Program-made: the position numbers and the translations under genes
In this document: in pieces, positions 14,410-35,533 of the stretch
Layout of the letters: each line of letters opens with the position of its first letter
Position numbering within the stretch: the first letter of the stretch is position 1
NCBI GenBank assembly: GCA_944376195.1
Contig: CALWBW010000006.1
Span: 1 to 64,000 of the forward strand
From: an uncultured Clostridia bacterium
GTDB lineage: Bacteria > Bacillota > Clostridia > Oscillospirales > QAMX01
Length of the DNA stretch: 64,000 nt
Reading direction: 5' to 3'
Notes under the pieces: model-generated
What the model saw: the letters and a program-made list of their open reading frames with translations, nothing else
The model's database searches: none
Told to the model about the DNA's origin: nothing

Positions 14410-14436
14410 GGCTTTTCAGAAAGGGGAATAAAAATC

Positions 14437-15807
14437 ATGAACCGTCTTTTTACCAGGGACAAGTCGTTTTACCGCACGTTTTTCCGCCTGACCTGCATCA
14501 TCGCGCTGCAAAATGTGTTGGTGTGCCTGGTCAACCTCGCCGATAACGTCATGATCGGCGCGTACAGCGAAAACGCCATGTCCGGCGTAGCGCTGGTGAA
14601 CCAGATCCAGTTTATGCTGCAGATGCTCGTGGCCGGCGCGGGAGAGGGTCTGATTGTCATGGCTTCGCGCTACTGGGGCGAACGAAACCTTGCCTCTATC
14701 CATAAAACCGTGTCGATCGGCATGTGGATGGGAATTGCGTTTTCCCTGCTTTTGTGGGCGCTGGTGTTCTTTTTCCCCATGCCTGTACTGCGGCTTTTGA
14801 CGCCGGAGGAACCTGTGCTTGCGGAGGCGGCGGTTTATCTGCGCATCGTCTGCTTCTCTTATATCTTCTTCGCCGTTACGCAGCTTTTGCTGGCTTCCAT
14901 GCGCAGCGTGGAGACGGTTAACGTGGGTTTTGCCGTTTCGATTGTCGCGCTGGTGGTCAATGTTTCCTTAAACTATGTCCTGATTTTCGGAAAGTTCGGT
15001 TTTCCGGAGCTGGGGACCGCGGGCGCCGCGTGGGCGACGCTGATTGCACGCATCGTGGAAACCATTGTTACCGTGCTCTATGTGCGCGTGATCGACCGGA
15101 AACTGCGGCTGCGGCTGCGGACGTTTTTGCATATCGACCTGTCGTTCCTGCGGCAGTACCTGCGCTATGGCGTGCCCGTTATTCTGTCGAGCGGCGTCTG
15201 GGGAATCGGTATGGCGGCGCAGACCGCCATCCTCGGCCATATGGGCGCGGCGTCTATCGCGGCAAACTCTATCGCTACAACTGCGTTTAATATCCTGACC
15301 GTAATAACGTACGGTTCGGCCAACGCCTCTCAGGTGATTATCGCGAAAACCATCGGCGAGCGGCGCGTGGACGACGCCCGGCAATATGCCAAAACATTTC
15401 AAATTCTGTTCCTCGGCATCGGCATCGTGACGGGCACTTTGATTTTCCTCCTGCGTGGGCCGATTGTCGGCATGTACAAGATCTCCGGCGAATCGGCGGC
15501 GCTGGCACGGGATTTTTTGGCGGTGCTGTCCGTTACCGTGGTGGGGACGTCTTATCAGATGTCCTGCCTGTGCGGGATTGTGCGCGGCGGCGGCGATACC
15601 CGGTTTGTGCTCTATAACGACATGATTTTCATGTGGGGCATCGTGCTTCCCCTGACGGCGCTCGCAGCGTTTGTCCTGCACTGGCCGCCGGTTGTGGTGT
15701 TTGCGTGCTTAAAGTCTGACCAGATCACGAAATGCGCGGTCGCCGTCGTAAAGGTGAACCGCTACCGCTGGATCAAGCGCTTTGACCAGGCGGGAGCCGG
15801 GAAATAA
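14437..15807 (+). CDS. MATE family efflux transporter (second of tandem pair)
   Basis: The 456-residue membrane protein is homologous to the preceding gene. Matching landmarks include FFRLTCIIALQNVLVCLVNLA, ADNVMIGAYSE, the Asn-rich NVSLNYVLIFGKFGFPELG and the second-half opening YGVPVILSSGVWGIG. It starts 27 bp after the first MATE stop with an AAAGGGG site. The two are clearly diverged, so the duplication is old or the gene pair was assembled. Substrate is unknown. Confidence 0.93.
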   Translation: MNRLFTRDKSFYRTFFRLTCIIALQNVLVCLVNLADNVMIGAYSENAMSGVALVNQIQFMLQMLVAGAGEGLIVMASRYWGERNLASIHKTVSIGMWMGIAFSLLLWALVFFFPMPVLRLLTPEEPVLAEAAVYLRIVCFSYIFFAVTQLLLASMRSVETVNVGFAVSIVALVVNVSLNYVLIFGKFGFPELGTAGAAWATLIARIVETIVTVLYVRVIDRKLRLRLRTFLHIDLSFLRQYLRYGVPVILSSGVWGIGMAAQTAILGHMGAASIAANSIATTAFNILTVITYGSANASQVIIAKTIGERRVDDARQYAKTFQILFLGIGIVTGTLIFLLRGPIVGMYKISGESAALARDFLAVLSVTVVGTSYQMSCLCGIVRGGGDTRFVLYNDMIFMWGIVLPLTALAAFVLHWPPVVVFACLKSDQITKCAVAVVKVNRYRWIKRFDQAGAGK

Positions 15808-15819
15808 CCGCGCTGCGGC

Positions 15820-15848
15820 TTGACTTCCCAGTCGAAAATTGGTAAACT
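15820..15848 (+). promoter_or_regulatory. Promoter of the LytTR regulator gene
   Basis: TTGACT (15820-15825) and TAAACT (15843-15848) are 17 bp apart, 78 bp upstream of the start codon. It lies just after the second MATE stop, so the regulator is likely its own unit. Confidence 0.65.
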
Positions 15849-15925
15849 GAATATATAACCGCACCGTGTTCCGAAACGGTTCGCGGCGCGCAGTTCATCT
15901 GATTGCCCGGAGGTGGATATGCGCT

Positions 15926-16672
15926 ATGCCTGAAAAACTATTGCCGCCTGTCCGAATCGCTGTTTGCGACGGCGTGGAAGAAGATCGGGACCGTACGCTT
16001 GCGATGGCGCACGAAATTTTGAAATCCGAGGGGGATTTTTGCACTTTTTTTGTGTATGACGAGGCGGAACTCCTTGTGGAAGTCTGCAAGGACGAGGCGG
16101 ATTTTCAATGTCTGCTTCTGGGTGTGTCGGAAGAAGAGGGGACCGGTTTGGCCGCAACGCTGCGCGACAGGGGCTTCGATGGGGCGATTGTACTGCTGTC
16201 CCGCAGTGCGGCGCTGGCGCCGTTGGGCTATGAAGTTGAGGCGGCGCGCTATCTGCTCAAGCCGCTCCAACGGGAAAAACTGCGCGAGGCATTGCTTTTC
16301 TGTTTGCACGCGGGATTGCGGGAGATTTTGCTCCCCATCGCGGGAGGAAGGCGACGGATTGCGTTGTCGGAACTGATGTTTGTGGAGACGTATGAACGCG
16401 GGGTACGTCTGTCGCTGACCAGCGGCGAGTGCCGTTCCTCCGTAAAAATTTCCGCGCTGGCTGCGGCGCTGCCGGAACGGCAGTTTGTATTTGTACACAG
16501 GACGCTTCTTGTCAATCTCGCGTTTGTGCAGTCCCTGCGCTATCGGGAGCTGACGCTGAAAACGGGAAGGGTACTTCCCGTCAGCAAGTACCGGCAGGCG
16601 GATGTGAAAGCCAGGCTCCAGCGCTGGCTCCGAAGTAACGCGGCTTCTTCGGGCGTGATATCGGCGCCCTGA
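15926..16672 (+). CDS. LytTR-type response regulator with degenerate receiver
   Basis: The 248-residue protein has an N-terminal CheY-like receiver (residues 8-125) and a C-terminal LytTR DNA-binding domain (about 135-240). The LytTR domain shows FVETYERGVRLSL, FVFVHRTLLVNLAFV and PVSKYRQADVK. The receiver keeps the first Asp (AVCDG) and the switch Lys (YLLKP). Where LDxxMP should hold the phosphorylated Asp it reads CLLLGVSEEEG, so the Asp is Gly. It probably works without phosphorylation. ATG 15926 follows GGAGGTGG. No histidine kinase is adjacent. The next gene is the giant surface protein, whose promoter carries a LytTR-style direct repeat, so direct control is a good hypothesis. Confidence 0.85.
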   Translation: MPEKLLPPVRIAVCDGVEEDRDRTLAMAHEILKSEGDFCTFFVYDEAELLVEVCKDEADFQCLLLGVSEEEGTGLAATLRDRGFDGAIVLLSRSAALAPLGYEVEAARYLLKPLQREKLREALLFCLHAGLREILLPIAGGRRRIALSELMFVETYERGVRLSLTSGECRSSVKISALAAALPERQFVFVHRTLLVNLAFVQSLRYRELTLKTGRVLPVSKYRQADVKARLQRWLRSNAASSGVISAP

Positions 16673-16724: not shown

Positions 16725-16762
16725 GCGCCGGGTCTTCTGTGAGAACACAGAGGGCCCGGCGC
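16725..16762 (+). terminator. Terminator of the LytTR gene
   Basis: GCGCCGGGTC and GGCCCGGCGC form the outer stem, with an inner CTGTG/CACAG helix and a GAAA-like loop, followed by TGTTTAT. The stem is strong, the T-tract weak. Confidence 0.7.
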
Positions 16763-16871: not shown

Positions 16872-17020
16872 AGTATTACATATCTTGTATTATGTCCATC
16901 TTTGTGAAAATTTTTCCAGATTCTCCGGCGGATTTTGTGTGTGGGCGCAGGTATTCCGGAAAAAACACGGAAAACCGTGATAAAATAGATCGCAAAATTG
17001 ATACATAGGAGGAAAAACAG

Positions 17021-20000
17021 ATGAGTAAAACACGAACGCGTGTGTGGAGCATAGTTCTTGCTTTTGCAATGGTCGTGAGTTTGCTTCCTGCAACGGCGTT
17101 GGCGACTGGCGGCGGCACCGGTACGGTGGGTGATCCGTATCTGGTAGCAAATGCGCAAGACATGACCGACGCGCTGGACCAGAGTGGTCCGGAGATTTAC
17201 ATCCGGCTGTCCGGCAGTTTTACAGTGGACACTGCGCAAAACTGGACCATTGGCAGCGGGAAATCCGTTGTGCTGGATCTTGCAGGGCATACGCTGACGA
17301 ATACCCATGACGCGTCAAACTACTATGTTTTAAAGGTAAATGGCGGGTCATTGACGTTAGAGGACTCTTCGCCTGCGAAAACGGGTACAATTGACGTCAA
17401 CGGTTCAAACAGCTACGGCATTCAGATTTTGGGCACTGGGAGTACCTTCATTATGAATGGCGGTACGGTCACGTCCGAAGGTAAGTGTGCCCTGGATATG
17501 AATTATTTTACCCAAAATGCCATTGTCGAGATAAATGGCGGCAAGCTGGCTACGGAGAAGCATACGAATGCGGCAATTAACGTTCGTGGTAGCAACACAA
17601 CGTTTACCATGCATGGCGGTGAAATTGACAACCCGTCTGGCATGTGGGCGGTGTTTGCAAACGCTAGTAGTTCAGCTCCCGTAGATTCCCTGACGCTTAC
17701 GTTTGACGGCGGTACGATTACCTCGAATAAAACAGGTATCTATATCGATTATCCGATTACGGTGAATTTTGGCGGTACAGCTGAAGTTGACGCAAGCGGC
17801 TATGGCATTAATATGAGCGGCACCGGCGTTCTTAATATGACCGGCGGTACGGTTCAGAGCGATAGTGCTGCGATTTATTCGGATGAGAGTAGCGTGGTCA
17901 AAGTTTCAGGCGGTAGTCTCACGGGTGCCCAAGCCTTAAAAATTACTGAGGGTAGTACCGCGCAGATTACCAATGGTACGTTTACTGGTGATGTGCAGGG
18001 AGACACTTCCAACATCACCATCGAGGGCGGTACCTTTAAGGATGATGTTACCGAGTATCTGCCGGAAGGCATGGGTCAGGATAGCATCACCGGCGAAATT
18101 ACTGTTTCCGGTGACGCGGAGGCCAGCATTGGCAACCGTGGCTATCTGACGTTGGAAGAGGCGCTTGAGAAGGCGACTTCCGGCGATGTGATTCTGCTGC
18201 GGAAAAACGTGGAGCTTGACGATACGCTGACGATTAACTCGACGAAGTCGGGCATTACGATCGACGGCGCCGGGCAGTATACGATTTCCCCGAGTTCCAG
18301 TTTTACTTCGGGAAATGATCTGGTGTTGGTTACGGGTGACAACGTGACGATCCGGAATCTCACTGTGGATGGTAAAAATACGGCGAAACATGGTATCCAG
18401 TTCTATTGCGCGGCAAACGGCGCAATTGAGAATGTGACGTCCCAAAATAATAATATGGGGTGTGGCATTTTGATCAACGCCTCGACGGTGACGGCAAGCG
18501 GAACCATTAAGTTTGAGAATAACGGCTGGGGCAACGCGATCAACGTCGGGTTTGGCAGCGGTATCAATGACGCGCCCGGCGCATCCTTGGATGTGACGAA
18601 TGCGAAGCTTGAGGGCGTTACGGCCATTTACGCGGACGCGAGTGACGTGCAGCGCGCGGGAGAATATAGCGGCCCGGGCGGCCCTGTGACGATCACGGTC
18701 AAAGACGCGAATGGCAAGTATGTCGCCATCGCGGACGATGCGTTCCCTGTATACTTCATCCCCGAAGCAGTAGCTGCGGCAAACACCGTGATCACGGTGG
18801 AAAATCCGGACGGCGAGGTTCTGCGCTATACAAAGACGACCTCCCTGCCGGCCGCCATTGATGCGGCAAAAGACGGCGCGGTGATTACGCTGGCTGACGG
18901 CGACTATGACGTCACGACGAACCGGGAGAGTGATTCGACTTACGGTTCCGATTTGATTATTGACAAGGATAACGTGACGATCCAGGCCGCGGACGGCGCA
19001 ACGCCGGTTATCTATGGCTTTACGAATAAGTATAGCGGCGGAACCGGTGACGAAGGCATTTGCGGACAGAGCACGGTCTTTGTCTCGGGCCGCAATGTAA
19101 CCCTGCAGGACCTGACGATTATGCCGTTGGGCGCCTATGCCGGTCCTGGGCTTGACTCCAAGGCGGTTGAGGTCACAAAGGGCGCGACGGGCTTTGTCAT
19201 GGCCGGTTGCGAAATTACCGGGAATAAGTTTGAAAAAGACGATCAGGGCGCCCATGGAACGACGGGCGGCGGACTGGTCTATTTTGAGACGAACGACGCG
19301 ACGCTTGACCTGAATAGCTTCGGTGCGGGCACAACTGTTCTCGGCGGTTGGCTTACGAGCAACGAGGACGATGGGTATTACAGCGTAGACGCTTCCGGCA
19401 ACTACTGGGGCGAGAATGCTGACTATGATGATGTTGCTGCGATGCTTGGCGACGGCGCCACGGTGAACGACTGGTATACTCATCGTGATGCGGATGGAAA
19501 TCTCTCCGGCCTGCGGGTCGAAGGCGGCGTCCTGATCGTGGCGGATCCGAATATAACCGGTGCAACCGTCAGGTTCCCCGACGCGATTTCGGGCGATGAT
19601 TATGAAGTTGCCTCCGGCGGCCAGGTTAACTTCACGATCACGCTGGAAGACGAGACGGAAGTGCAGGACGTTTACGCGGCCTACAGCCCCGACGGGACGG
19701 GAACGCGTTATCTGACGGTGACACCTGTCACGTCGACCATTTATACCTTCACGGCTCCGGACGCTGCGGACTTCAGTGCGGGCGTGGACAAGACCGTTAC
19801 GGTCTATGTCACCACGAACTCCAAGTCTGAGGTTACGCTTGATCTGGACCTTCGCGGCACGAAGGAAGACGAGACTTCCGGCAGCGCTCCGAGTCCGGAT
19901 TACATTACCGCAGGTTCGACCTTGACGGCGGTTGTCACCGTTCAGGACGAAACTGGAAATGATATTACGGACGCGACCGGCGCCGGTGTGCAGTTCACCT

Positions 20001-23000
20001 GGCCGGACGGTACGATTACCTATGGTTATGTGAACGGGAACGGCACGGCTACCTCGCAGTGGACGCCTTCCGATGCGTTTGCAAACGGTCTCTACGTGGG
20101 CGACAGTGATTGGACTGCACGTCAGAAAGAGGTAACGGTCGAGTTCTTCGGCACGGAAAAATACAAGAGTGCGACGACTCAGGAAACCGTGACGATCAAG
20201 AGCCGGACGATTGCACCGGTGGCAGATCTTGCGATTGTTGCAAAGTCGGCCGATAGCGACATCAACGTGCAGCAACTGGAAGTTCTCTCTACTTATGCAC
20301 TGAGCTTGAGCGAGAACGACTATCCTGTTTTGAACGCTCAGGGCGTTAAGCTGCAGAATAATATAGATTATACCTTTACCTGGTATGTCAATAACGGAAA
20401 CGGCGAGTGGACCGAGCTTACAGATGTAAGCGCTGTCACGCCGAAAAATATTAATACAAAGTACAAAGTAGTCTTCACGCCGATCGGCGAGTATTCGCTG
20501 GGCGGATTTGAACTTGTGATCGGCTGCGGCGAACTCAAGGGAACGACTGTTACGACGACAACCAATGTCGATGCCAATCAGCCGCTTTACGAGGGACAGT
20601 TCCTCCGCGTTACGGCGGCCGTGGTGGATGAGGACGACAATGCTGTCACGAGCGGCGAAGTTGTCTTCTATGCCGAGCGCCAGGGTGAGCCGTGGACTCC
20701 CACGGAGTTGGGACGCGTCGCGCTGGTGAACGACGGCAGCGCCGCGCTCTCCCTGACGAACCTCCCCGCCGGTGAGTACGCGATTGCGGCGTACTATCTG
20801 GGCGCCGAGGGCGTATATGCGGCGTCCGAAGGCAAATCCCCTGCATTTGAAATTCAGAGCGCCACTCTTCCTGAGACCGGATGGTCGATCAAGATTGGCG
20901 ACGGTTCTGAAACGAATATCAGCGTAGGCGAAGAGACGACGCTGTCGATTTCCGCACCGGCTGGTGTGGTAGCGGCGGACTATCGTGTCGAATGGCTGGT
21001 GTCGAAGGACGGCGGCGTAACCTGGCTGCTGGCCGGAAACGACGCGACGCTGACCATCACGCCTGCGAACAATCTCTATCAGTATCGTGCACTTGTCTAC
21101 CCGGCAGGCAATTATACCCAGCCGGTAAACGGCATTGCCCTGACGAAGGTGACGGCATCTGCGAATGATCAGATTGAAACAAAGCTGTCCCTTACCATGA
21201 TGCCGGAGTCCGTCTTTGAAGGCGAGACGTTTGTCCTGCGCGCGCAGGTAATGGCGGGCACCGTTCCGGTAACGGGCGGTTATGTCACCTTTACGACTGA
21301 TGATGGATTCAGCTATGCCGCGCCGGTTGACGCCGCGGGTTATGCAGAAGCCACCATTCTGGGCGGCGTATCTGAAAAAACCGTCTATACGGCGACTTAC
21401 ACCGACCCGAGCAAGATTTATAAAGATTCTACGGGCACCTTGACTGTAACGCCGAACACCCGTGAAATCGAGATGAAAGCGGCCTATATCAAGGCTGATC
21501 CTGCAGACTTTACGGTTGGCACCGCGGTAGTTTTGACGCCGCCTGCGGTGTTTGCGAAGGATAGCAATACCCAGCTTACAGCGGGCCGCGACTTCTACTA
21601 TCAGTGGCAGTACAGCACCGACTATGTAGGAGGTGCAGGCGATTATACTGCTACGTGGCTGAACTTCAGCGCTCCGTTGGCTGGCGGTTCGGCAGACGAA
21701 AACGCGATCCGCGTGACCATCGGCGACGCCAACACGGCGTTCCGCGTCATTGCGGTACCGTACGGCAATTATCAGTACCCGGCCGGCGGTGTGGTTACGG
21801 AGCCGATCTGCGGGAATGCAGATAAGATTTCCACTATAGCCAGCGTGTCCATCAGAAGCCTTGAAAACGGCAAGGAAATCTTTGATGGCGACGAGGTTGT
21901 CCTTACCGCGGCGGTTATGTATGGTGCGAATCTCCCTGTAACCGAAGGCTTTGTGCAGTTCAGTGTTACAAATGCTAGTGGACTTGAGACCGTTCTGGGC
22001 ACAGTGCTCTTGAACGACAAAGGCGTAGCGACTCTGACGACCACGGCTTACGCAGATCAGATGGAGTCGGTCACCGCAACGTACTTTGGCACCAGCAAGT
22101 ACCAAGCGAGCAAGAATACTGCTAACCTCAACATCAATTCCGCGACGATTGCGGTTCAGACCAAAATTATTGGCACATTTGCAGTAAACGAGGAGACTTC
22201 CGTCACTCTGCCGGTTGTGACCGACGCGGATGTTACGACGCAAGTTCTTACGAAGGACGTCGACTACTATATCGTGTGGTATGTAGACGACGGCGAGGGC
22301 TGGTATGAACTGATTGATCCTGAATATGCGAATGGTTCCTTGAAGTTCACGCCGGCAAATGAGAATACCCGTCTTGCGGCGGTTGTCTTCCCGATGGGCG
22401 ACTACATGTTCCCGGTCGACGGCATTGCGGCCGGTGTAATCGGCGATGCGACGAAGGTTACGACCGCAACGACGCTTACGACCTCCGGCGATTGGCACGA
22501 GGGCAGCACGATCACCCTGACGGCAGCTGTCAAGGCCGATCAAACGGAAGTGCTCGACGGTAAGGTGGAGTTCTACGCCACGATCGGCGGCACGGCGTCT
22601 GTCATGATTGGTTCTGCCGCGCTGAACAAAAACGGCGAAGCGGTTTTGACCTACACGCTCCCCGCCTACAATGCGACGAATAACAGCATTTCCTTTGCGG
22701 CAAATTATATTGGCACGGATGTGTATGCCGCTTCTGAAGCTACTGCTTCCGACGGCAAGATCCTGTCCGCGACGATTACCTTTGGCGCTGATCCGAAGAT
22801 TACGATTGCAGACAGCAAGAATACCGAAGTTGATCCGGAGAATGTCCAGGTCGGCGCCGAGTATACCCTCACCGCTCCTGATGTCTACGAGACCGGTAAC
22901 CTCACTACTCCGCTGACCTACGGCAAGGATTACTACTATGTCTGGCAGTACTCCGAAGACGGCAAGACGTGGGAGACGGTTTACTCCACGATGGAGAATG

Positions 23001-26000
23001 GCGGAAATGTTTATGAAAACGCTGTGTTCGGCAACGAAAACGCCGAATATCGCGCTGTAGCGTATCCGATCATTGCCTCCGGCACGACGTACCGTTATCC
23101 TGCAACCGGTATCGTGGTTGCCACTTCCCTGCAGGCAAAGACGATTGCTACCACCACGACGCTCACAATCGGCAACGCCTATGTGGTGAGTGGCGGCACG
23201 AACATCTATCCGGAAGGCCGTACCATTACCCTGACGGCTACGGTTCTTGAACAGGATGATTCCAGCGTACCGGCATACGGCGCAGTGAAGTTCTATTATA
23301 AGAATGCTTCTACACCGGCCAGCACGCCGGTTCTCCTGGGCACGATGAGCCTGGATCCGGGCGGCAGCGCAACTCTGAGCATTGCGGCTCCTGCTGCCAT
23401 CGGTAGTGCGTACATCTTCTACGCAGAGTTTGAGGGCAATACGGTGTATGCTGCCTCTAGCTCTGATAACACAAAAGGCAACGTCTTTGTTCTCCCGAAC
23501 GAGATTGCGCTGACCGGCGCCATCGCAATTTATGACGCAGATGGCAACGAGGTTGCCGCTGCTGACGCAGTTGTCGGCACAGCTTACACGCTGAAGGGCG
23601 CAACTGCCACTGTGAACACGCCTAACAGATCTGATCTTCAGTACATCAATGCTGTTAACGCTGCGGTTGCAGCTGGCGAGGCGCCTGCTTACTACAGCTA
23701 CGTCTGGCAGAAGTCTGAGGACGGCGGCAAGACGTGGACGAACCTTGCAAACAACACCGATACCCTGACAGATGTCACCTTTGATTCTTCCCTGACCGTG
23801 TACCGCCTGGCGGCGTTCCCGGTCGAGAGCACCGGTTGGGTTGCCCCGGCCGAGGGTGTTACCTCCAACGAAGTTTCTGTTGGCAAACAGAGCACAGATG
23901 TGACCATTACCCTTACGGATGTCGCGACTGGTACGGTTCTTGCTAACAAGAGCAATGCGTTTGAGGGCACCGAAGTACAGGTGACTGTGGATGTCTCTAA
24001 GGTTGCAGACAAACTGGGCACCGACGGCACAGTCAAGCTAGTGTTAGTGCGTGGGCATTCTGCTAACCCGAATAGAGAGCGGATCGAAATCGGCAGTGCG
24101 GACGTGAATAACGCCGGTAAGGCGGTCTTCACCGTTGTCCTGCCTGCATACAGCTACGATCCTGCAAATGGTTTGAGCAACCAGATTAACTTTGAGGTCA
24201 CGTTCACAGGCGACGATTACTTCGAAGGCGATATGTTGAATGTGGGCGAGACGTACCTCAAGCTTGCCTCTGCTGCTATCACGTGGAAGGATGAAACCGG
24301 CACCTTTACGGATGCTGTGAAGTCGATCACCATCTACGAAGGCACCAAGGCAGAGGGTACCACGGTTACCGAGATGGCCGCAAACGGTACCTATACGCTG
24401 GCAATCCCTGCAATTTATGCCGGTGATGTATACGATAGCGGCGTACGTAAGAATGAGCAGCTGACGGTAAACAAAGATTACACCGTTGCATGGCAGGTCC
24501 GCATGACGGGCGAGGATGCCGCTACCTGGCGTACGCTGGACGGCGCATCCGGTGATACCTACACGGTCACCTGCACGGAAGGCCAGGAGAAGTACAGCTA
24601 CCGCGCCGTGATCACGCCGATGGGCGATTACAGCAAGGCAATGGATTTGATCTTTGGCGAACTGACCCCGTCCGCAACGCTTACCACGCTTGCAACTGCG
24701 GACACCGAGCTTGCCGCAACCACCACGACGCTTGCAGTCAGCGGTACGGTTGCTGAGGATGACAGTGTTGCAATCGGCGGCGATACGCCGTTTACAGCGG
24801 TTGGTGAGCACCAGACCCAGTACGAGGGCGCGAATGTGACCCTGACGGCGACGGTTGAAAATGCTGACGGCAAGGTGAACGACGGCCTGGTATACTTCTA
24901 TCGCAATGGCGAAAAGCTAAACGACGTGGGCGTCAAGGTTGACGCAAACGGTGTTGCGACCCTGACGGTTGCGACTTCCGCGTGGGACGATGCGAAGTCC
25001 GCGACGGAGAACGTTGACAGCTACTATGCTGACTACGAAGGCACGACGGTCTTTGATAAGTCCTCCTCCAAGATTGTTGATCCTGACACCAGCGATGTGA
25101 AGGGTCTTGTGGACGTCTATGTCCGCTCCACCACAATCGCAACCCCGCGTATCAGTGCAACCTACAAGGATGGCACGGATACCACGACAAAATATACCAC
25201 CAGCGATGCAAACCTGGAAGGCCTGCCCGCTGCTGTGGAAATGACCTTTGCGCTTGTTCAGAATAACACCTCCGCGATTAGCGGCTATTCTGTCACCGCG
25301 ACCGACGGCCGTTGGCTGAAGGAAGGCGTTGACTTCACGATGCAGTGGTACCGTGAGAACCCGGATGTTATCGAGGGTGGCAGCGAGTCCAATGTCAACG
25401 TGGCGATCGACGGCGCTACCGAGTCGTCCTATGTCAAGGATGCCTCCAGCCTGGCACAGAAGTTCAGCATCTTCCTCACCGCAATCGGCAATATGAAGAC
25501 CGGTGCGTGGTCGAAGCAGGCCATTATCGGCGATGCTGCAACGCCTGAGCTCGCGCTTGACATCGACTATAGCTTTGAGCCTGACGCAGCGGAACTGGAA
25601 GAAGGTGTTGTCGCCACTGCCGGCGCGCATTACGGCGATATCGTGACCCTGACCGCAACGGTGAAGGGCGACGAAGCCGCCAAGGCGCTCCCGACCGGCA
25701 CGGTAACCTTCTACTACCGTACGAGCGATAATAACTGGACGCAGCTTGGCGATCCGGTATCCCTGGTACAGAAAGATACCGCTGAGAACAAGCTTGTAGC
25801 AATCGCAACTTATACGCTTGACACAACCAAGATTCCGTTTAATATCACGGGCATCAGCTTCTCCTATAGCGGCGACTCCTTCTACAAAGCATTTGAGATG
25901 GTTGACGCGCAGAAGGATAACGCTGCAACCTATGAAGCCTTTAAGCTCTGGTCAATCCAGATCAGCAACCCGATTCGTGAAGACATCAACATGACGGGCT

Positions 26001-29000
26001 ACACTCCGGATTATAACGATCCTGCCTGCTATCCGGACGGCGTATCCTATGGCAACCTCGGCATTACGATTTATAAAGTAAACGCTGACGGTACCCAGGG
26101 TGACGAAGTCCAGGCTAATGCTACTACGGGCAAGAAGGAATTGCAGGCTGAGACCGAGTACATCTTGGAGATTCAGGATGTCTACACCAAGAGCGGCGAA
26201 AAGCTGAACCTTGCGAAGGATAACTCCGCGGATATCACCGTTGAGTGGTATAAGAGCACGGATAACGGCAAGACCTGGGGTCCGCTGCCTGAGACGGAGT
26301 ACACGAATCTTGATGCCAAGACCATTCAGGTAACGCCTGCAACGAAGGATTACCAGTACATGGTCAAGATCATCACGACTCCTTCCTTCTATAACTCCCA
26401 GTTCCCCGAGCTCGAAGATTTCGAGTATTCGGAGGATGGCGTTGTCATCACAACCTTGCAGGATGTCACGGTTTCCGTGACGGCGAAGACCGAAACCCCG
26501 GTGAACGGCAAAGATAACTGGGTCTACCAGGCCAACCCGATTACCCTCTTCGCGACGGTATCTCCTGTGGAGGCCGGTGAGCCGACCGGCACGGTGGAGT
26601 TCTACTATACTGTTCTGCAGGATGGCGCAACGGTGAATGATGACGGTACGATTACCGATAGCGAAGGCAATGCCATTGATCTTGACGCAGTCACCTGGAC
26701 GGCAGTTGTCTCCGATGGTACGGACGGCGGCAATACCGCGAACCTCGTTGAGACGACCTCCGCAACAGACGTCGACGCTGTGATGGTGGCCGAACTGACG
26801 ACCTCCAGTCTCCCGGTTGATAAGGACGGCACGTATAGCAACATCGTCATCAAGGCAGTCTATCTGGGAGATGCGACCTTCAAGACCATGTCGAACATCA
26901 CTTCCGGTGATTCGGGTGCTGATAGAATCGCATCCAGCGAGATCGTCGTCTTCTCCTCGAAGATCCTGCAAAATGAGTATATCCCGAATCACGTCCTGAC
27001 GTTTACAAAGGCTGCAGACGGTACGATTACCGGCTGGACGTATGAAGGCGTAGCCGGCGATCTGTACGACGGCGTGATTATCACCGCAAAGACGCTGAAG
27101 TCCGATGGTACTTCCACTGTGATTACGCTGAACCCGGTTTATACAATCGACGCGAACGACCGTGATCACGCGATCTTCACCACTCCGGGTGATCTCGCCG
27201 CGATTTACACGCTGACGGCCGGTGTGGATTACGAGGTCGAGTGGCAGTACTGCGCAAACTATGAAGCGTACAAGCAGTATCTGAGCGATCCTGCGACCTA
27301 CGATAAGAACTGGCAGCAGGTTGACGATTCCCTCGTGAGCAACTACTGCACCGTCGAGCAGGTACAGGGCTACGCTTATCGCGCAGTCGTCACCCCGCTT
27401 GGCACGGAAAAGGCACAGCAGTCCTTCCAGGATGCTGACCGGATTTATTCCAACATCCTCGTGGTCGAAGCGGCAGACGCGCGTCTTCTGACGAACATCC
27501 GCAACGCTTCCTCCGCTTCCGCAAACGGCGATACCGTCTATGTTGACGCGATCGTGATGGGCGGAACGACCACGCCGATTGGCAATGTCACCCTCACGGT
27601 CACAGAGAAGAGAACCGACGCGGTTGTCTTCACTGAGACACAGAATCTGGTAAACGGCTGGACCACCTTCAAGTGGGAGAAGGTACAGCCCGGCGAGTAT
27701 ACGCTGGAGCTCGCCCTTGACGGCAACAATGGTTATGAAGCTGCTCCGATTACGGAGGATTACATTGTCCGCTTCACTGCACAGGATCAGTTGGGCGACG
27801 CCGGCGTGCCTGGTCTCCTCACCCTTACAGTGAATAATCCTGAAACGACTTATAACGGCCAGGTCCAGATGCTGGGCGCGGACGATGTCACGCTGACCGG
27901 CTTCACCGCTAACTACAGCGAATGGAAAGACATGGCGCTTGCCACGCTCACCTTCCAGTACTACGACGAGGACGGCAACCGCGTTGCGGAGCCGAAGGAT
28001 GCCGGAACGTATCAGGTGAAGGCCTACCTGCCTGAGTCCATGTATTGGGGCTATGTCGCGGCAGAAGGCACCTACACGATTGCACAGCGCGAGGTCAAGA
28101 TTAGCGACGTGATTGCCCAGGATAAGGTCTATAACGGCGACACGACGGCCAATATCCAGACCATCGAACTTGCATTGAGCCAGATTGACGATACGACCGG
28201 CCTGCCGACCGGTGATACCGGCCTGGTGGAAGGCGACAGCCTGTATGTGCAGGCAAATGGCGTCCTGAGCGGCGCGAATGCCGGTGAGCAGAAGTTGACG
28301 CTTGATGGCCTCACGCTGATGGGACCTGACGCGAACAACTACGTCATTGCAAACCCGGATTACAGCGAATCCTTTACCGTTTCCCGCAACATGCTGAAGA
28401 CCAGCGCGGTCACTGCCATTACCGCAGCGCCTGGTTACGAGTTGACGGACCTCCAGTTCTATATGATCGACCAGTATGGTACCCGTATTACCACAAAGGA
28501 TGCCGAGATCACGTATCTCTATCATGACGGTAACGATATCACACCGGTTGAAAATACAAATCTGCCTGGTGAGTACACTGTCCTGATCAGCATGGACGAG
28601 ACGAACTATAATGGCGGCGCAGCCCTGTCCCTTTACATTGTCGAGGATCGCGGCACAGCACAGTCTGTAGGCACTGTTGAGACCAACCTGACCAGCGCGG
28701 TTGTCGAAATCTCCTACACCTATCACGTCTACGACGGCACGGCGAAGTCCGTAACGGTTACGCCGGCTGACGCGACGGTAGAATACGCCGGCGCGGATGG
28801 CGTGTACAGAACGGCCGCTCCGACGGATGCCGGACGCTACATGGTGCGCGCAACGAAGGGAGACATGAGCTATTACGGCATCATGACCATCGTGAAGGGC
28901 GAACCGCAGTTCGACATCACCGCAATCTCTGCTACGTACACCGGCAGCCGCTATAACGGCGGCGTGGACGTAGACGATCTGGATCAGATCCTTACAGACA

Positions 29001-31330
29001 GCAACCCCGGTTGGAACTTTGCCGATCCTTACGAAGGCGGATACCTGACCTATGTGGGCGGCAGCATTGTGGGCTATGACTACAACGCACCGCGTGACGT
29101 CAGCTATGACCTCGACGGCGCGGCCTACGACGACAGCGTGACTTCCGGCGCGTACGGCACATACGTTGTGACGGCGCATTATCCGGAGACGGCGAACACC
29201 GTGGCAGTCACGGCTTCTGCCGAGTATGAAATCACCAAAGCAGCTCTTACCATTACAGGCGACGATATCTATACCCGCCGCTTTGATACGCACTCCAAGC
29301 TGACGGCGACCTACGAAGGCTTCGTAGGCGAGGTGGGCAGCCCGGACAGCGAATTGCGCGACCTGATCGCATTGCCGACCTTCCAGCTGAGCGAAGACCT
29401 CGAGTTGACCGGCGAGTCCCTGACGAACGTCGGTAACCTCCCGATCATCCTGAGCAAGGCCAATGCCCGCAACTACGAGATCACGTATGTGAACGGTATC
29501 GCGAGCACGGCGGCAGACTCTACCCAGGACGATCTGGCGATCCGCGGCATCCCGTCCACGATCTACTACGGCGACAGCTTCCAGCTCTTCCTCTATGGCA
29601 GCAGCGATGGAACGACGACCAACGAGTCCAGCGCCGTCACATGGACGAGCAGCGATCCTGCTATTGCAACGATTGACAAATTCGGCAAGGTCACGATCAC
29701 CGGTGTTGGCAAGTTCACCATCACGGCAGTTCGTGGCGATGATCCGGATACGCAGATCGAGATCACAAGCGCAGATCTTACCGCGCTGGCGCGCCGCAAT
29801 GACTTTGTGGTCGCACGCGAGGATGTGCTCTATGACGGTACTGAAAAGACCGTTGGCGCTGATCTGAAGTTCTATTACATGTCGCATGGCACGCGCTTTG
29901 TAAACGACAATCCGCCGCCTGTTTCCATCACACTGAAGGGCACGGATGCTGGTGAGTACCTCGTAGGAATCAGCTACTTTGATCCTACTGCGACGGAAAC
30001 CCTTGTCTCCGGCAGCGCATTGCTTGCCATCCACAGAGCGCAGGCGACTGTGACGACTGTGGCCGCGACGAAGGAATACGGCGATGAAAATCCGGCATTC
30101 ACCTATGAAACGAACCCGGATGGCGTTTTGACAGGTGCGCGTGTTGAAACCTCCGCGTTTAAAGACAGCGATACCGGCGTCTATGAACTGCTGGTTGCCG
30201 GCGGCACTGCCGATCGCAACTATGTGCTCGCCTATGCGCTGGGTGATGTAAACGCAGACTTCACGGTAACCAAGAAAGATCTGACCTTCAAGGTTGGCAG
30301 CCTGGCTGGTACAAATGGCCAGACCAAGCAGTGGCGTACGATTACGAAGGACGGCACGCGGGGTTATGTGGCGACCATCGACCTGGCTACCGCAGTGTTC
30401 GAGCAGGACGGCGATCGTGTATTCGGTGAGCGCAACCAGATCTTGGATTACGAGGTGGACGGCCTCATTCCGGGCGATTCCCTCGTAGACCTGTGGGATG
30501 CAAGCGCTCGTGACGAAAATATGTGGTTTGCCAAGCTGAATGAGGACTTTGCCCTCAGCGCCGAAGCTGCCGCAAACCGCGAGCTTGACGGCACGACGCA
30601 GATTGACCACGAAGTCGGTACGATTGATCACGCGAAGATTGAAGAGGATATTGAGGAAGCATGGTATGAGATTACCGGCAACACCTCTTCCCGTAACTAC
30701 AACGTAACGTATGAGAACGGTACGCAGAATGTCACGCAGCGTGAGGTTTCGATTGCGAACACCGTGGTTGCGGTACCTGCCGGAACGACAGCGGAAGATC
30801 TGATTACGGTTATCGGACCGCAGCTTTCCATCACCGGCCTTGCCGCGAACCTGAACCACAACTACACGGATCTCTTGCTTGACGTTGAAGCGGCAGTTGA
30901 TACCGCGGCCGGCGCCGATCAGCAGACCGTGAAGCTCACATGCGGCAATACGAACTATGTGCTGGACGACGCGAAATCCACCATTACGGTTGTCATCGGT
31001 GAGGTAACCGGTAACGGCTACTTCATTGAGAAGACAGAGGAGTATACCATCCTGCGCCTGCAGCGTACGCTCGATCTTGCAGACGGTACGACTCATGTTG
31101 AGGCGGCTACCGGAATTGTGGATCTTGAGTTGACGATTAAGGACAGCCAAACGGAAGATGAACTGGTAGTCGGTGTGATGACTGAGATTACGAAGGACAG
31201 CCCCGACTGGAACGATGCATGGGATACGAACTATGCGTACTATATCCTGCGGCATGAGTCCGTGGATGGTCACAAGACGCGCTACAGACTCGAAGCTACC
31301 GGTTATAACTTTAATTACACGAACAACTGA
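17021..31330 (+). CDS. Giant secreted multi-domain surface protein (4769 residues)
   Basis: A Sec signal peptide (basic MSKTRTRVW, hydrophobic core, cleavage near ALA-TG) starts a 4769-residue extracellular protein. Residues about 50-370 and 370-860 form right-handed beta-helix regions rich in MNGGTV-, FDGGTI- and VSGGSL-type turns. From about 860 to 3600 there are roughly eleven copies of an Ig-like domain (pattern YEG..VTLTATV...G.V.FY) alternating with a second Ig-like type (pattern DYYY.WQ.S.DGG.TW). The C-terminal 1100 residues contain YDG-like (DKVYNGDTTA, near 3700), BIG2-like (WTSSDPAIATIDKFGKVT, near 4205) and MBG-like (KEYGDENPAFTY, near 4350) domains. No LPXTG, SLH, choline-binding or dockerin module ends it. 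ATG follows AGGAGG. The SLH protein encoded 30 bp downstream may provide attachment. Adhesin or S-layer-associated stalk is the likely role. Confidence 0.9.
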   Translation: MSKTRTRVWSIVLAFAMVVSLLPATALATGGGTGTVGDPYLVANAQDMTDALDQSGPEIYIRLSGSFTVDTAQNWTIGSGKSVVLDLAGHTLTNTHDASNYYVLKVNGGSLTLEDSSPAKTGTIDVNGSNSYGIQILGTGSTFIMNGGTVTSEGKCALDMNYFTQNAIVEINGGKLATEKHTNAAINVRGSNTTFTMHGGEIDNPSGMWAVFANASSSAPVDSLTLTFDGGTITSNKTGIYIDYPITVNFGGTAEVDASGYGINMSGTGVLNMTGGTVQSDSAAIYSDESSVVKVSGGSLTGAQALKITEGSTAQITNGTFTGDVQGDTSNITIEGGTFKDDVTEYLPEGMGQDSITGEITVSGDAEASIGNRGYLTLEEALEKATSGDVILLRKNVELDDTLTINSTKSGITIDGAGQYTISPSSSFTSGNDLVLVTGDNVTIRNLTVDGKNTAKHGIQFYCAANGAIENVTSQNNNMGCGILINASTVTASGTIKFENNGWGNAINVGFGSGINDAPGASLDVTNAKLEGVTAIYADASDVQRAGEYSGPGGPVTITVKDANGKYVAIADDAFPVYFIPEAVAAANTVITVENPDGEVLRYTKTTSLPAAIDAAKDGAVITLADGDYDVTTNRESDSTYGSDLIIDKDNVTIQAADGATPVIYGFTNKYSGGTGDEGICGQSTVFVSGRNVTLQDLTIMPLGAYAGPGLDSKAVEVTKGATGFVMAGCEITGNKFEKDDQGAHGTTGGGLVYFETNDATLDLNSFGAGTTVLGGWLTSNEDDGYYSVDASGNYWGENADYDDVAAMLGDGATVNDWYTHRDADGNLSGLRVEGGVLIVADPNITGATVRFPDAISGDDYEVASGGQVNFTITLEDETEVQDVYAAYSPDGTGTRYLTVTPVTSTIYTFTAPDAADFSAGVDKTVTVYVTTNSKSEVTLDLDLRGTKEDETSGSAPSPDYITAGSTLTAVVTVQDETGNDITDATGAGVQFTWPDGTITYGYVNGNGTATSQWTPSDAFANGLYVGDSDWTARQKEVTVEFFGTEKYKSATTQETVTIKSRTIAPVADLAIVAKSADSDINVQQLEVLSTYALSLSENDYPVLNAQGVKLQNNIDYTFTWYVNNGNGEWTELTDVSAVTPKNINTKYKVVFTPIGEYSLGGFELVIGCGELKGTTVTTTTNVDANQPLYEGQFLRVTAAVVDEDDNAVTSGEVVFYAERQGEPWTPTELGRVALVNDGSAALSLTNLPAGEYAIAAYYLGAEGVYAASEGKSPAFEIQSATLPETGWSIKIGDGSETNISVGEETTLSISAPAGVVAADYRVEWLVSKDGGVTWLLAGNDATLTITPANNLYQYRALVYPAGNYTQPVNGIALTKVTASANDQIETKLSLTMMPESVFEGETFVLRAQVMAGTVPVTGGYVTFTTDDGFSYAAPVDAAGYAEATILGGVSEKTVYTATYTDPSKIYKDSTGTLTVTPNTREIEMKAAYIKADPADFTVGTAVVLTPPAVFAKDSNTQLTAGRDFYYQWQYSTDYVGGAGDYTATWLNFSAPLAGGSADENAIRVTIGDANTAFRVIAVPYGNYQYPAGGVVTEPICGNADKISTIASVSIRSLENGKEIFDGDEVVLTAAVMYGANLPVTEGFVQFSVTNASGLETVLGTVLLNDKGVATLTTTAYADQMESVTATYFGTSKYQASKNTANLNINSATIAVQTKIIGTFAVNEETSVTLPVVTDADVTTQVLTKDVDYYIVWYVDDGEGWYELIDPEYANGSLKFTPANENTRLAAVVFPMGDYMFPVDGIAAGVIGDATKVTTATTLTTSGDWHEGSTITLTAAVKADQTEVLDGKVEFYATIGGTASVMIGSAALNKNGEAVLTYTLPAYNATNNSISFAANYIGTDVYAASEATASDGKILSATITFGADPKITIADSKNTEVDPENVQVGAEYTLTAPDVYETGNLTTPLTYGKDYYYVWQYSEDGKTWETVYSTMENGGNVYENAVFGNENAEYRAVAYPIIASGTTYRYPATGIVVATSLQAKTIATTTTLTIGNAYVVSGGTNIYPEGRTITLTATVLEQDDSSVPAYGAVKFYYKNASTPASTPVLLGTMSLDPGGSATLSIAAPAAIGSAYIFYAEFEGNTVYAASSSDNTKGNVFVLPNEIALTGAIAIYDADGNEVAAADAVVGTAYTLKGATATVNTPNRSDLQYINAVNAAVAAGEAPAYYSYVWQKSEDGGKTWTNLANNTDTLTDVTFDSSLTVYRLAAFPVESTGWVAPAEGVTSNEVSVGKQSTDVTITLTDVATGTVLANKSNAFEGTEVQVTVDVSKVADKLGTDGTVKLVLVRGHSANPNRERIEIGSADVNNAGKAVFTVVLPAYSYDPANGLSNQINFEVTFTGDDYFEGDMLNVGETYLKLASAAITWKDETGTFTDAVKSITIYEGTKAEGTTVTEMAANGTYTLAIPAIYAGDVYDSGVRKNEQLTVNKDYTVAWQVRMTGEDAATWRTLDGASGDTYTVTCTEGQEKYSYRAVITPMGDYSKAMDLIFGELTPSATLTTLATADTELAATTTTLAVSGTVAEDDSVAIGGDTPFTAVGEHQTQYEGANVTLTATVENADGKVNDGLVYFYRNGEKLNDVGVKVDANGVATLTVATSAWDDAKSATENVDSYYADYEGTTVFDKSSSKIVDPDTSDVKGLVDVYVRSTTIATPRISATYKDGTDTTTKYTTSDANLEGLPAAVEMTFALVQNNTSAISGYSVTATDGRWLKEGVDFTMQWYRENPDVIEGGSESNVNVAIDGATESSYVKDASSLAQKFSIFLTAIGNMKTGAWSKQAIIGDAATPELALDIDYSFEPDAAELEEGVVATAGAHYGDIVTLTATVKGDEAAKALPTGTVTFYYRTSDNNWTQLGDPVSLVQKDTAENKLVAIATYTLDTTKIPFNITGISFSYSGDSFYKAFEMVDAQKDNAATYEAFKLWSIQISNPIREDINMTGYTPDYNDPACYPDGVSYGNLGITIYKVNADGTQGDEVQANATTGKKELQAETEYILEIQDVYTKSGEKLNLAKDNSADITVEWYKSTDNGKTWGPLPETEYTNLDAKTIQVTPATKDYQYMVKIITTPSFYNSQFPELEDFEYSEDGVVITTLQDVTVSVTAKTETPVNGKDNWVYQANPITLFATVSPVEAGEPTGTVEFYYTVLQDGATVNDDGTITDSEGNAIDLDAVTWTAVVSDGTDGGNTANLVETTSATDVDAVMVAELTTSSLPVDKDGTYSNIVIKAVYLGDATFKTMSNITSGDSGADRIASSEIVVFSSKILQNEYIPNHVLTFTKAADGTITGWTYEGVAGDLYDGVIITAKTLKSDGTSTVITLNPVYTIDANDRDHAIFTTPGDLAAIYTLTAGVDYEVEWQYCANYEAYKQYLSDPATYDKNWQQVDDSLVSNYCTVEQVQGYAYRAVVTPLGTEKAQQSFQDADRIYSNILVVEAADARLLTNIRNASSASANGDTVYVDAIVMGGTTTPIGNVTLTVTEKRTDAVVFTETQNLVNGWTTFKWEKVQPGEYTLELALDGNNGYEAAPITEDYIVRFTAQDQLGDAGVPGLLTLTVNNPETTYNGQVQMLGADDVTLTGFTANYSEWKDMALATLTFQYYDEDGNRVAEPKDAGTYQVKAYLPESMYWGYVAAEGTYTIAQREVKISDVIAQDKVYNGDTTANIQTIELALSQIDDTTGLPTGDTGLVEGDSLYVQANGVLSGANAGEQKLTLDGLTLMGPDANNYVIANPDYSESFTVSRNMLKTSAVTAITAAPGYELTDLQFYMIDQYGTRITTKDAEITYLYHDGNDITPVENTNLPGEYTVLISMDETNYNGGAALSLYIVEDRGTAQSVGTVETNLTSAVVEISYTYHVYDGTAKSVTVTPADATVEYAGADGVYRTAAPTDAGRYMVRATKGDMSYYGIMTIVKGEPQFDITAISATYTGSRYNGGVDVDDLDQILTDSNPGWNFADPYEGGYLTYVGGSIVGYDYNAPRDVSYDLDGAAYDDSVTSGAYGTYVVTAHYPETANTVAVTASAEYEITKAALTITGDDIYTRRFDTHSKLTATYEGFVGEVGSPDSELRDLIALPTFQLSEDLELTGESLTNVGNLPIILSKANARNYEITYVNGIASTAADSTQDDLAIRGIPSTIYYGDSFQLFLYGSSDGTTTNESSAVTWTSSDPAIATIDKFGKVTITGVGKFTITAVRGDDPDTQIEITSADLTALARRNDFVVAREDVLYDGTEKTVGADLKFYYMSHGTRFVNDNPPPVSITLKGTDAGEYLVGISYFDPTATETLVSGSALLAIHRAQATVTTVAATKEYGDENPAFTYETNPDGVLTGARVETSAFKDSDTGVYELLVAGGTADRNYVLAYALGDVNADFTVTKKDLTFKVGSLAGTNGQTKQWRTITKDGTRGYVATIDLATAVFEQDGDRVFGERNQILDYEVDGLIPGDSLVDLWDASARDENMWFAKLNEDFALSAEAAANRELDGTTQIDHEVGTIDHAKIEEDIEEAWYEITGNTSSRNYNVTYENGTQNVTQREVSIANTVVAVPAGTTAEDLITVIGPQLSITGLAANLNHNYTDLLLDVEAAVDTAAGADQQTVKLTCGNTNYVLDDAKSTITVVIGEVTGNGYFIEKTEEYTILRLQRTLDLADGTTHVEAATGIVDLELTIKDSQTEDELVVGVMTEITKDSPDWNDAWDTNYAYYILRHESVDGHKTRYRLEATGYNFNYTNN

Positions 31331-31360
31331 GTCCATTCCGATTGAGAAAGGAGAACTGAC

Positions 31361-32455
31361 ATGATGCAACGTAAAAACCATTTTTGGACGCTGTTACTGT
31401 CCCTGATTCTGGTGTTTTCCTTTGCCTGCGGTCTGACGGCCGGAGCAATCGATGTGGACATCGGTGGCTCTGAAGGAGACTTCACGGGTGACGACGATAA
31501 TCCAACCACGAATAAGCCCTCTGTAACCCTCGTGCAAGTCAAATTTGAGTCGGACGACACGTATGGTACGCTGGACGGAAAGACGCAGCTTTCGCTGACT
31601 TCCGGTTCCAAGATTCCGAGCGCCAGCATTCCGAACGTGATTGAAGTAACGACGGGCAGCTTCCTCGGTTGGGTAATTAAAGGCGAGGAGAGCAAGGGCA
31701 TTGTCGATTTGGAGACTTACCGTGTCACCAAAGACATCGTCTTGGTTGCCGTATATGATCAGAATGTAACCCCGGACGATTCCGTTGAGGATGAGGAGGA
31801 CGCCGCGGAAGCGGCGTCCGAGGGGCTCTTGAACAAGGACGATCACATTGCCTATATGCAGGGCGACGACAACAACAATTTCCGTCCCTCCGATTCCCTG
31901 ACCCGCGCCGAGGCCTGCACAGTGTTCTATAACCTGTTGCTGGACAAGGATGTTAAGATCACGAAGTCCTTTGCGGATGTGGATCCTGACGCGTGGTATG
32001 GCACGCCGGTTCTGACGCTGGCGAGCCTGGGTATTCTGAACGGCTATGAGGACGGCACGTTCCTTCCGAATGCGCCGATTTCCCGTGCTGAATTCGTCGC
32101 GATTGCTTCTCGTTTCGAAGAAGTAGAGCCCGGCGTTTTGAATTTCTCAGATGTCCCGGAGGACAACTGGGCCTATGATTCCATCGCCTCCGCAGTGGCA
32201 AAGGGATGGGTTTCCGGCCTGCCGGATGGCACCTTTGGTCTGAACATGCAGATTGATCGTGCGTCCGTCACGCGTATTGTTAACGCCATGTTGGATCGTA
32301 CGCCGGATGAGGACTACATCGATACGCACGATGTCCGCACCTTTGACGATCTGGATAAGACGAATTGGGCGTACTACGAGATCATGGAAGCGACGAACGC
32401 GCATGATTATGTTGCGGACGGCGACGGAGAAACCTGGGTAGCGCTTGCTGATTAA
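31361..32455 (+). CDS. Secreted SLH-domain protein
   Basis: The 364-residue protein has its own signal peptide (MMQRKNHFW, hydrophobic run, cleavage near AGA). A beta-rich module follows (VTLVQVKFESDDTYGTLDG to ILVAVYDQN, resembling a Listeria-Bacteroides-type repeat). After an acidic linker come three SLH repeats from about residue 160 to the end. The repeats show LTRAE, ISRAE and IDRAS at the motif normally read as TRAE, with FADV, FSDV and FDDL openings. SLH repeats bind pyruvylated secondary cell-wall polymers. It starts 30 bp after the giant gene with AAAGGAG, so they are an operon. Because it has a separate signal peptide and ribosome binding site, it is not a frameshifted tail of the giant protein. 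An anchoring partner role is inference. Confidence 0.93.
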   Translation: MMQRKNHFWTLLLSLILVFSFACGLTAGAIDVDIGGSEGDFTGDDDNPTTNKPSVTLVQVKFESDDTYGTLDGKTQLSLTSGSKIPSASIPNVIEVTTGSFLGWVIKGEESKGIVDLETYRVTKDIVLVAVYDQNVTPDDSVEDEEDAAEAASEGLLNKDDHIAYMQGDDNNNFRPSDSLTRAEACTVFYNLLLDKDVKITKSFADVDPDAWYGTPVLTLASLGILNGYEDGTFLPNAPISRAEFVAIASRFEEVEPGVLNFSDVPEDNWAYDSIASAVAKGWVSGLPDGTFGLNMQIDRASVTRIVNAMLDRTPDEDYIDTHDVRTFDDLDKTNWAYYEIMEATNAHDYVADGDGETWVALAD

Positions 32456-32485: not shown

Positions 32486-32519
32486 AAACCCGGTGTGGCC
32501 GAAAGGCTGCACCGGGTTT
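32486..32519 (+). terminator. Terminator of the giant/SLH operon
   Basis: AAACCCGGTGTGGCC pairs with GGCTGCACCGGGTTT around GAAA, followed by further T residues. A second plus-strand hairpin with T-run follows at 32557-32579. Confidence 0.9.
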
Positions 32520-32556
32520 TTCATTTCCTATGTTCAAGGTTTGGGACGAATGCAGG

Positions 32557-33523: not shown

Positions 33524-33527
33524 GTTA

Positions 33528-33612
33528 TGGTACGGGTAGTGGGGGTCGAACCCACACGCCTTGCGGCACAGGAACCTAAATCCTGCACGTCTGCCAATTC
33601 CGCCATACCCGC
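33528..33612 (-). tRNA. tRNA-Leu (anticodon UAG)
   Basis: The 85-nt gene begins GCGGGTATGGCGGAATTGGC and ends TACCCGTACCA, with CCA encoded. The anticodon loop TTTAGGT sits between GCAGGA and TCCTGT and gives anticodon TAG, which reads CUN leucine codons. A long variable arm (GCCGCAAGGC region) and the T-arm GGGTTCGACCC complete the class II tRNA-Leu fold. Position 1-72 is a G-U pair. Confidence 0.95.
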
Positions 33613-33660
33613 AAATGAGATCCGATGAAGTCCGGATCCGCACGCCTGCCCCAGAGAAAG

Positions 33661-34356
33661 TCAACTTACTTCGCCGTCTACAATCAAACGGCTTTCCCCT
33701 GCGCGAAGAGCTGCGACAAACTCCTCACCCGTACGCACACGGTGCGGAAACGCCAGACCTGCACGGCCGATTCCTGCGTAATCATCCCAGTGCGCGTCTG
33801 CGCCGGAGGTGCGAAGCAGACCCAGACGGTCGGCCAGCGCTGCGGATTTTGCGTTTGCCTCAGGCGGATCGGAGTAGTTAAAAACCTCCACGGCGTCGCA
33901 GACGGAGAGATCCGGCTCATAAAAAGCCGCCATGTAGGAACGAAAGCGGTAGGGGTGCGCATGGGAGATCAGGCCGCCCGCCGCGTGAACGCGCCGTCCG
34001 AATTCCACCAGGGGGAGCCGGTCTATTTCGGGATTTGCTTTCCAAAACGCTATGCCGACCCCATAGATGAGGACTTCTTTCCAATGGCCGTAGTTGTGCT
34101 CCATGCCGAAGAGAAGGTCAAATCCCAGTTCGTCCGCGACCGGCTTTGCAGAGAGAAACGCCTCATAGTAGCGCTGCATCCGCGCTTCCCAGGAAAGCTT
34201 CCGCGGGATTGCGGAGTTCCCGGAGACGAAGTGATCGGTAAGTACGCCGCCGGCATACCCCGCTGCGTGATAAGCGCGCACCATGTCGGCTGCGCTGGAT
34301 TTGCCGCAGGCGCTGCCTTCGCAGGAATGCATATGCGTTTCATACCGGTACCACAT
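33661..34356 (-). CDS. PHP-domain metal-dependent hydrolase
   Basis: The 231-residue protein opens ETHMHSCEGSACG, the HxH motif of PHP phosphoesterases. It continues with LTDHFVSGN, LLFGMEHNYG, HAAGGLISHAHPYR and TSGADAHWDD, which supply the remaining His, Glu and Asp metal ligands. Length fits stand-alone PHP proteins such as YciV-type 3',5'-nucleoside bisphosphate phosphatases or histidinol-phosphate-phosphatase relatives. It stands 48 bp upstream of the tRNA-Leu gene on the same strand and could be co-transcribed with it. Substrate is unknown. Confidence 0.85.
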   Translation of the reverse strand: MWYRYETHMHSCEGSACGKSSAADMVRAYHAAGYAGGVLTDHFVSGNSAIPRKLSWEARMQRYYEAFLSAKPVADELGFDLLFGMEHNYGHWKEVLIYGVGIAFWKANPEIDRLPLVEFGRRVHAAGGLISHAHPYRFRSYMAAFYEPDLSVCDAVEVFNYSDPPEANAKSAALADRLGLLRTSGADAHWDDYAGIGRAGLAFPHRVRTGEEFVAALRAGESRLIVDGEVS

Positions 34357-34429
34357 GAAAACCCGACCTTCCCGGCCTTAGAATGGTCTTATTTTAGCAC
34401 CGAATTGCCGGGTTTGTCAAGGGCGGCGA

Positions 34430-34459
34430 TTGACAAGGACGTCTGCGGCGTATTATAAT
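34430..34459 (+). promoter_or_regulatory. asnA promoter
   Basis: TTGACA (34430-34435) and TATAAT (34454-34459) match consensus exactly with an 18-bp spacer, 55 bp upstream of the asnA start. Confidence 0.85.
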
Positions 34460-34513
34460 AAAAGAATCTTGAAACCGCATGTTGAGATTTTTACAATAAC
34501 GGGGGAATTCCAT

Positions 34514-35521: not shown

Positions 35522-35533
35522 TTTCCCGTATTT

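Follow-up and report, generated by a model that had tools for sequence, protein, structure and literature searches.

The window, a 64,000-nucleotide stretch of DNA, encodes a giant secreted stalk protein that has no anchor in its own chain. We propose that this protein is nevertheless probably anchored, because an SLH protein encoded by the next gene, 30 bases downstream, would supply the attachment to the cell wall and because the same pairing recurs in all five genomes in which the base of the stalk was found. On balance we favour a modular surface adhesin made by two genes, in which the C-terminal base of the giant would be held by the operon-encoded SLH protein through physical binding. 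The initial annotation had described a secreted, anchorless chain; its anatomy of the chain stood in most respects, while the downstream partner, which starts 30 bases past the coordinates given there, had been missed. Anchorless giant stalk proteins can easily be dismissed as secreted or truncated, whereas in this case a separate gene seems to encode the anchor.

The window lies on contig 6 (70,969 bases) of a 2.2 Mb assembly of 83 contigs that is 94% complete. Assemblies were used as deposited. The features of the two genes are collected in the table below.

Features of the giant gene and its SLH partner gene in the window
Feature	Positions	Strand	Basis or remark
AGGAGG ribosome-binding site of the giant gene	17007..17012	+	sequence reading
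Giant stalk gene	17021..31330	+	ATG to TGA, 4769 aa
Signal peptide, residues 1-28	17021..17104	+	sequence and hydrophobicity
Beta-helix 1 of the head, residues about 38-372	17132..18136	+	model and fold comparison
Probable beta-helix 2 and 3, residues about 375-842	18143..19546	+	sequence pattern; low-confidence model
Ladder, residues 951-3575: 11 Ig-like type-A and 10 probably Ig-like type-B domains	19871..27745	+	profiles, model
Residues about 3046-4764, common to all five giants (from B9 to the C-terminal end)	26156..31312	+	
Conserved C-terminal module without Pfam family, residues 4482-4769	30464..31327	+	candidate docking site
C-terminal end LEATGYNFNYTNN, AxGY motif common to all giants	31289..31327	+	
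AAAGGAG ribosome-binding site of the partner gene	31347..31353	+	sequence reading
SLH partner gene, 364 aa	31361..32455	+	30 bases past the giant stop
Hairpin and T-run after the partner gene, terminator-like	32489..32521	+	sequence reading

Anatomy of the giant

The giant ORF is a real gene. It has an independent colinear relative in L052, an uncultured Oscillospiraceae MAG, whose giant is 47% identical to residues 843-4764 of the window protein. Comparison of the two genes showed that codon position 3 is the most divergent (0.59 versus 0.36 and 0.34) and that 1012 of 1953 identical residues are encoded by different codons. The artefactual reading frame that the initial annotation had considered was thus not found. 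The GC content of the gene (GC 0.55, GC3 0.65) is like that of neighbouring genes, and its codon usage correlates with theirs at 0.94, the first 400 codons being somewhat deviant. Two long frames are open on the opposite strand of the giant (17936-22543 and 25952-31381, minus strand, 1535 and 1809 aa), and the L052 giant likewise faces an antisense open frame (L052 1073-9649, minus strand, 2858 aa). These frames look like shadow ORFs, since the codon-position differences favour the plus strand as coding.

The translated protein has a computed mass of 507 kDa and a pI of 4.1. Its signal peptide is the sole 19-residue stretch above a Kyte-Doolittle value of 1.6. The giant has no hydrophobic segment outside the signal peptide, hence no C-terminal membrane tail, and its only LPETG is internal, at residue 1283, which rules out a sortase anchor. 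SLH is absent from the polypeptide in Pfam searches. An anchor was likewise absent by Pfam from every giant scanned, G002 and G305 included, and no match to the profile of the C-terminal module belongs to an anchor-bearing frame. The chain is therefore without an anchor of its own, as first described, and fusion to a wall anchor was found in no relative.

Behind the head, domains of types A and B alternate strictly in profiles built from the protein itself, in close agreement with the eleven or so alternating pairs read initially. Domains A1 and B9 were found by these profiles although they served as seeds in neither the window protein nor that of L052, so that the alternation was not simply put in by hand. 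In 100 shuffled proteins no ladder domain was detected below an E-value of 0.01, and comparison of the type-A and type-B profiles revealed no match between them. Type A is Big_3_5-like (Pfam Big_3_5, 88 bits for a cut-off of 35.5, in ten stretches). Type B has no Pfam family of its own; in L052, a short Asp-box (BNR) motif match is situated within a B domain.

A structure model of A5-B5-A6, computed with 20 aligned ladder units, is nearly all beta with a mean pLDDT of 90.7. Its A domain superimposes on intimin D0-D1 (Z 10.5, rmsd 2.6 Å, 92 residues), and the A-B-A model matches 6xi3, an extender tandem of a large adhesion protein, with a Z of 10.2. Superposition of the entire model on multi-domain Ig-like chains leaves a large overall rmsd, probably due to differing angles between domains. 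Type B is confidently modelled as all-beta and is a candidate Ig-like domain; the matches to multi-Ig chains cover the A-B-A model as one piece. An Ig-like domain measures 3.5-4.5 nm in length, so that by arithmetic the ladder alone would extend over about 75-95 nm. The giant thus resembles the Ig-ladder adhesins of Gram-negative bacteria (intimin, large extender-repeat adhesins) in its Ig-like extender domains, but it would be anchored differently, and its ladder is built of two alternating types with copies sharing only about 29% identity.

This divergence among the ladder domains, the lack of any internal blastp match reaching 1e-3 within the giant and the absence of any DNA repeat exceeding 27 bases from its gene make a collapse of repeats in the assembly unlikely. 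Seventeen of the 21 window domains find their best match in the L052 domain of the same number, and recent tandem expansion was rejected along with collapse on these grounds. The individual domains of the 21-domain ladder have been preserved at about 50% identity, which suggests selection on the length of the stalk.

The base behind the ladder consists of MBG/YDG-like, Big_2 and MBG_2 domains followed by the C-terminal module. The YDG/MBG/BIG2-like domains named initially were recovered: MBG_2 and Big_2 score above the Pfam cut-offs in the giant and MBG_3 just below, while YDG passes in L052, in a region that aligns to the window giant. We found no relatives of the C-terminal module in viral contigs, nor of the last 969 residues of the giant in plasmids. 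Neither the type-B profile nor the C-terminal module nor the head gave a significant match among the sequences of solved structures.

The downstream SLH gene and its conservation

Besides its signal peptide, the partner protein contains an acidic linker, a module of some 100 residues and three SLH repeats, which Pfam detects in three stretches (103 bits for a cut-off of 20.8, E 6e-30). The signal peptide was read in the translation as a positively charged start and a hydrophobic leader. A scan gave a strong terminator-like hairpin ahead of the giant gene, at 16725-16762; the hairpin behind the partner gene was found by sequence reading and is not listed in the scan of the plus strand. Flanking hairpins of this kind fit a two-gene operon, in which giant and partner would be co-transcribed. 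Two MATE-family transporters and a LytTR regulator are encoded directly upstream of the operon, at 13018-16669.

L052 was the only full relative obtained by scanning a genome collection. Its giant of 4319 aa has the same ladder of 11 A and 10 B domains but begins with roughly 350 residues that bear no relation to the window head, and an SLH protein of 300 aa is encoded 31 bases downstream. The composition of the stalk, unrecognised in the initial annotation, is thus not unique, although the head differs. Whole-genome searches added three relatives: G002, of the same genus as the window (giant of 2775 aa), G305 (2976 aa) and G365, whose giant is split over two contigs. In the short ladders of G305 and G365 two A and two B domains were detected, and the G305 giant contains six Listeria-Bacteroides repeats, best at residues 416-480. 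Four partners match Pfam SLH (6e-30, 1.7e-37, 8.8e-7 and 2.7e-11), and that of G365 is 93% identical to the G305 partner. An anchorless giant followed by a small secreted SLH protein was therefore found in each of the five genomes that have the base (window, L052, G002, G305 and G365). The base is conserved across these giants, whereas the head varies and the ladder is shorter than that of the window in three of the four relatives: the pairing persists across genera in spite of changes in head and stalk length.

A survey with the C-terminal profile gave a strong match in 4 of 394 genomes of the order, the window genome included, and in 2 of 87 genomes of the family of G305; 351 genomes drawn from the class otherwise yielded marginal partial matches only, absence in all these genomes being subject to assembly completeness. 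In G002, the tRNA-Leu/asnA flank (window 33524-35522) is conserved, with 78% DNA identity and an AsnA 91% identical, but the giant operon is absent from this site. The G002 giant is located on another contig and is about 25-29% identical to that of the window, while L052, with an AsnA only 63% identical, has a giant 47% identical. This discordance makes horizontal exchange or differential loss likely in the history of the giant. In G002, whose giant neighbourhood differs from that of the window, giant and partner (L097 1456-4216) adjoin apparent nusG and ribosomal protein genes, recognised from their first residues only.

The SLH part of the window partner is 43% identical to that of the L052 partner (8e-45), and its 100-residue module is 37% identical to that of the G002 partner over 78 residues. 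A profile of the G002, G305 and G365 modules scores 19.6 bits on the window module, versus 9.3 bits for the best of 500 shuffles, and the module is absent from the L052 partner. By these comparisons the partner is modular itself, and a single docking domain is not proven. The closest relatives of its SLH part are SLH arrays inside other large frames (50% identity in G073), so that partner modules seem to have been exchanged.

Proposed attachment of the stalk

In the mechanism that we propose, the giant would be exported through its signal peptide and would fold into a fibre with the beta-helix head at the N-terminus, the alternating ladder as a spacer and the conserved base at the C-terminus. 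The partner would be secreted separately, bind the cell wall via its SLH repeats and grip the giant non-covalently at the base. The head would then face outward, a layout already suggested in the initial annotation and which we judge plausible, and would probably bind glycans or another surface.

Anchoring by the partner is supported by the three SLH repeats, the signal peptide and the own ribosome-binding site of this protein, encoded immediately behind the giant, by the pairing in five of five genomes, by the anchorless chain of every giant scanned, by the C-terminal module and AxGY motif common to the giants, and by a base that stays constant behind variable ladders and heads. Two observations count against it: no cohesin, dockerin or other known docking pair was detected, and the L052 partner lacks the 100-residue module found in other partners. 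Given how common SLH genes are in these genomes, they could also neighbour the giant for another reason. The window genome (G000) contains about 20 different SLH-bearing open frames, several of 1170-1898 codons; with only so many in 2.2 Mb, repeated adjacency by chance is unlikely. The missing anchor, the missing docking pair and the variable non-SLH part of the partners would also fit an extracellular matrix fibre, either released or loosely retained, with the SLH protein as a separate surface protein that only shares the operon. We consider this unlikely, as the SLH pairing is kept in five genomes while giant identity falls to about 25%, and survives a change of chromosomal site even inside one genus.

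Anchoring through a partner is known from the Clostridium thermocellum cellulosome, where an SLH-bearing anchoring scaffoldin holds the scaffold through a non-covalent cohesin-dockerin contact (PMC12484212). The window similarly encodes a large secreted scaffold without an anchor and a separate secreted SLH protein, which would hold it. The system is not a member of the cellulosome scaffoldins, however, since Pfam searches detected no cohesin or dockerin in giant or partner (E up to 1) or in the relatives (E 0.1); moreover a scaffoldin is a row of cohesins, whereas the giant consists of an Ig ladder carrying a beta-helix head. It is possible, although we put it forward only tentatively, that the C-terminal module of the giants and their SLH partners constitute a dedicated docking pair of a new, non-covalent type, analogous to cohesin and dockerin, through which stalks and heads would be interchangeable on a small wall anchor. 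If the two proteins bind, this would be a case of non-covalent surface docking outside cellulosomes, and modular adhesins of uncultured bacteria would become open to testing. No description of the pairing of a giant with an SLH partner was found in the open-access papers searched.

The SLH array of the partner is of the same kind as those in large SLH frames of the order (for example G054 and G057; 3684-4366 codons), but in the window it is carried by a separate protein with its own signal peptide. In many genomes of the order, arrays similar to it form part of far larger open frames, and the two window ORFs are in one frame with 30 bases between them, as they would be if a single SLH-anchored giant had been split here by a recent stop codon or an assembly error. 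We regard this as very improbable. The partner has its own ribosome-binding site and signal peptide; L052 is split identically, but in a different frame; and G002, G305 and G365 are also split, with other spacings and a signal peptide on each partner. A recent nonsense mutation was rejected because of these other frames and spacings.

Candidate functions of the head

Of the two or three beta-helix regions read initially, the first is supported by a structure model, just as the Big_3_5 ladder is upheld by profile searches and models. The single-sequence model of this region (pLDDT about 70-85) aligns to solved right-handed beta-helices with a Z of about 26 over 285-313 residues and an rmsd of about 3 Å, which points to a right-handed parallel beta-helix. 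Beta-helix 2 and 3 were assigned from the sequence pattern only, the model being poor there, and the corresponding residues do not align to L052.

The best matches of beta-helix 1 include tailspikes and adhesins. The head model aligns to the beta-helix adhesins PfbA of Streptococcus pneumoniae (Z 24.6, rmsd 3.0 Å, 310 residues) and pertactin (Z 24-26, rmsd about 3 Å), with identities of only 10-14% and in a fold common to many enzymes, so that function is not implied. These matches to beta-helix adhesins and to polysaccharide-active proteins were counted in favour of an adhesin, and glycan binding by the head is a reasonable guess from the model. C-5 epimerases, PL6 lyases, GH110 enzymes and tailspike depolymerases are also among the best structural neighbours, and the giant might instead display a catalytic head of the lyase, epimerase or glycosidase type, with the stalk as a spacer and the SLH partner as the anchor. 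We consider such a surface enzyme improbable, since the head matches no Pfam enzyme family, shares only a common fold with these neighbours at the same low identity, and is replaced by other heads on relatives with the same base.

A search of phages with the head gave one partial match: an unannotated phage record from human faeces (MT836106.1, 6256-6630) is 37% identical to part of beta-helix 1. Pieces of the window head also match other large open frames in five genomes of the order (L112-L117), which is consistent with an exchange of head modules.
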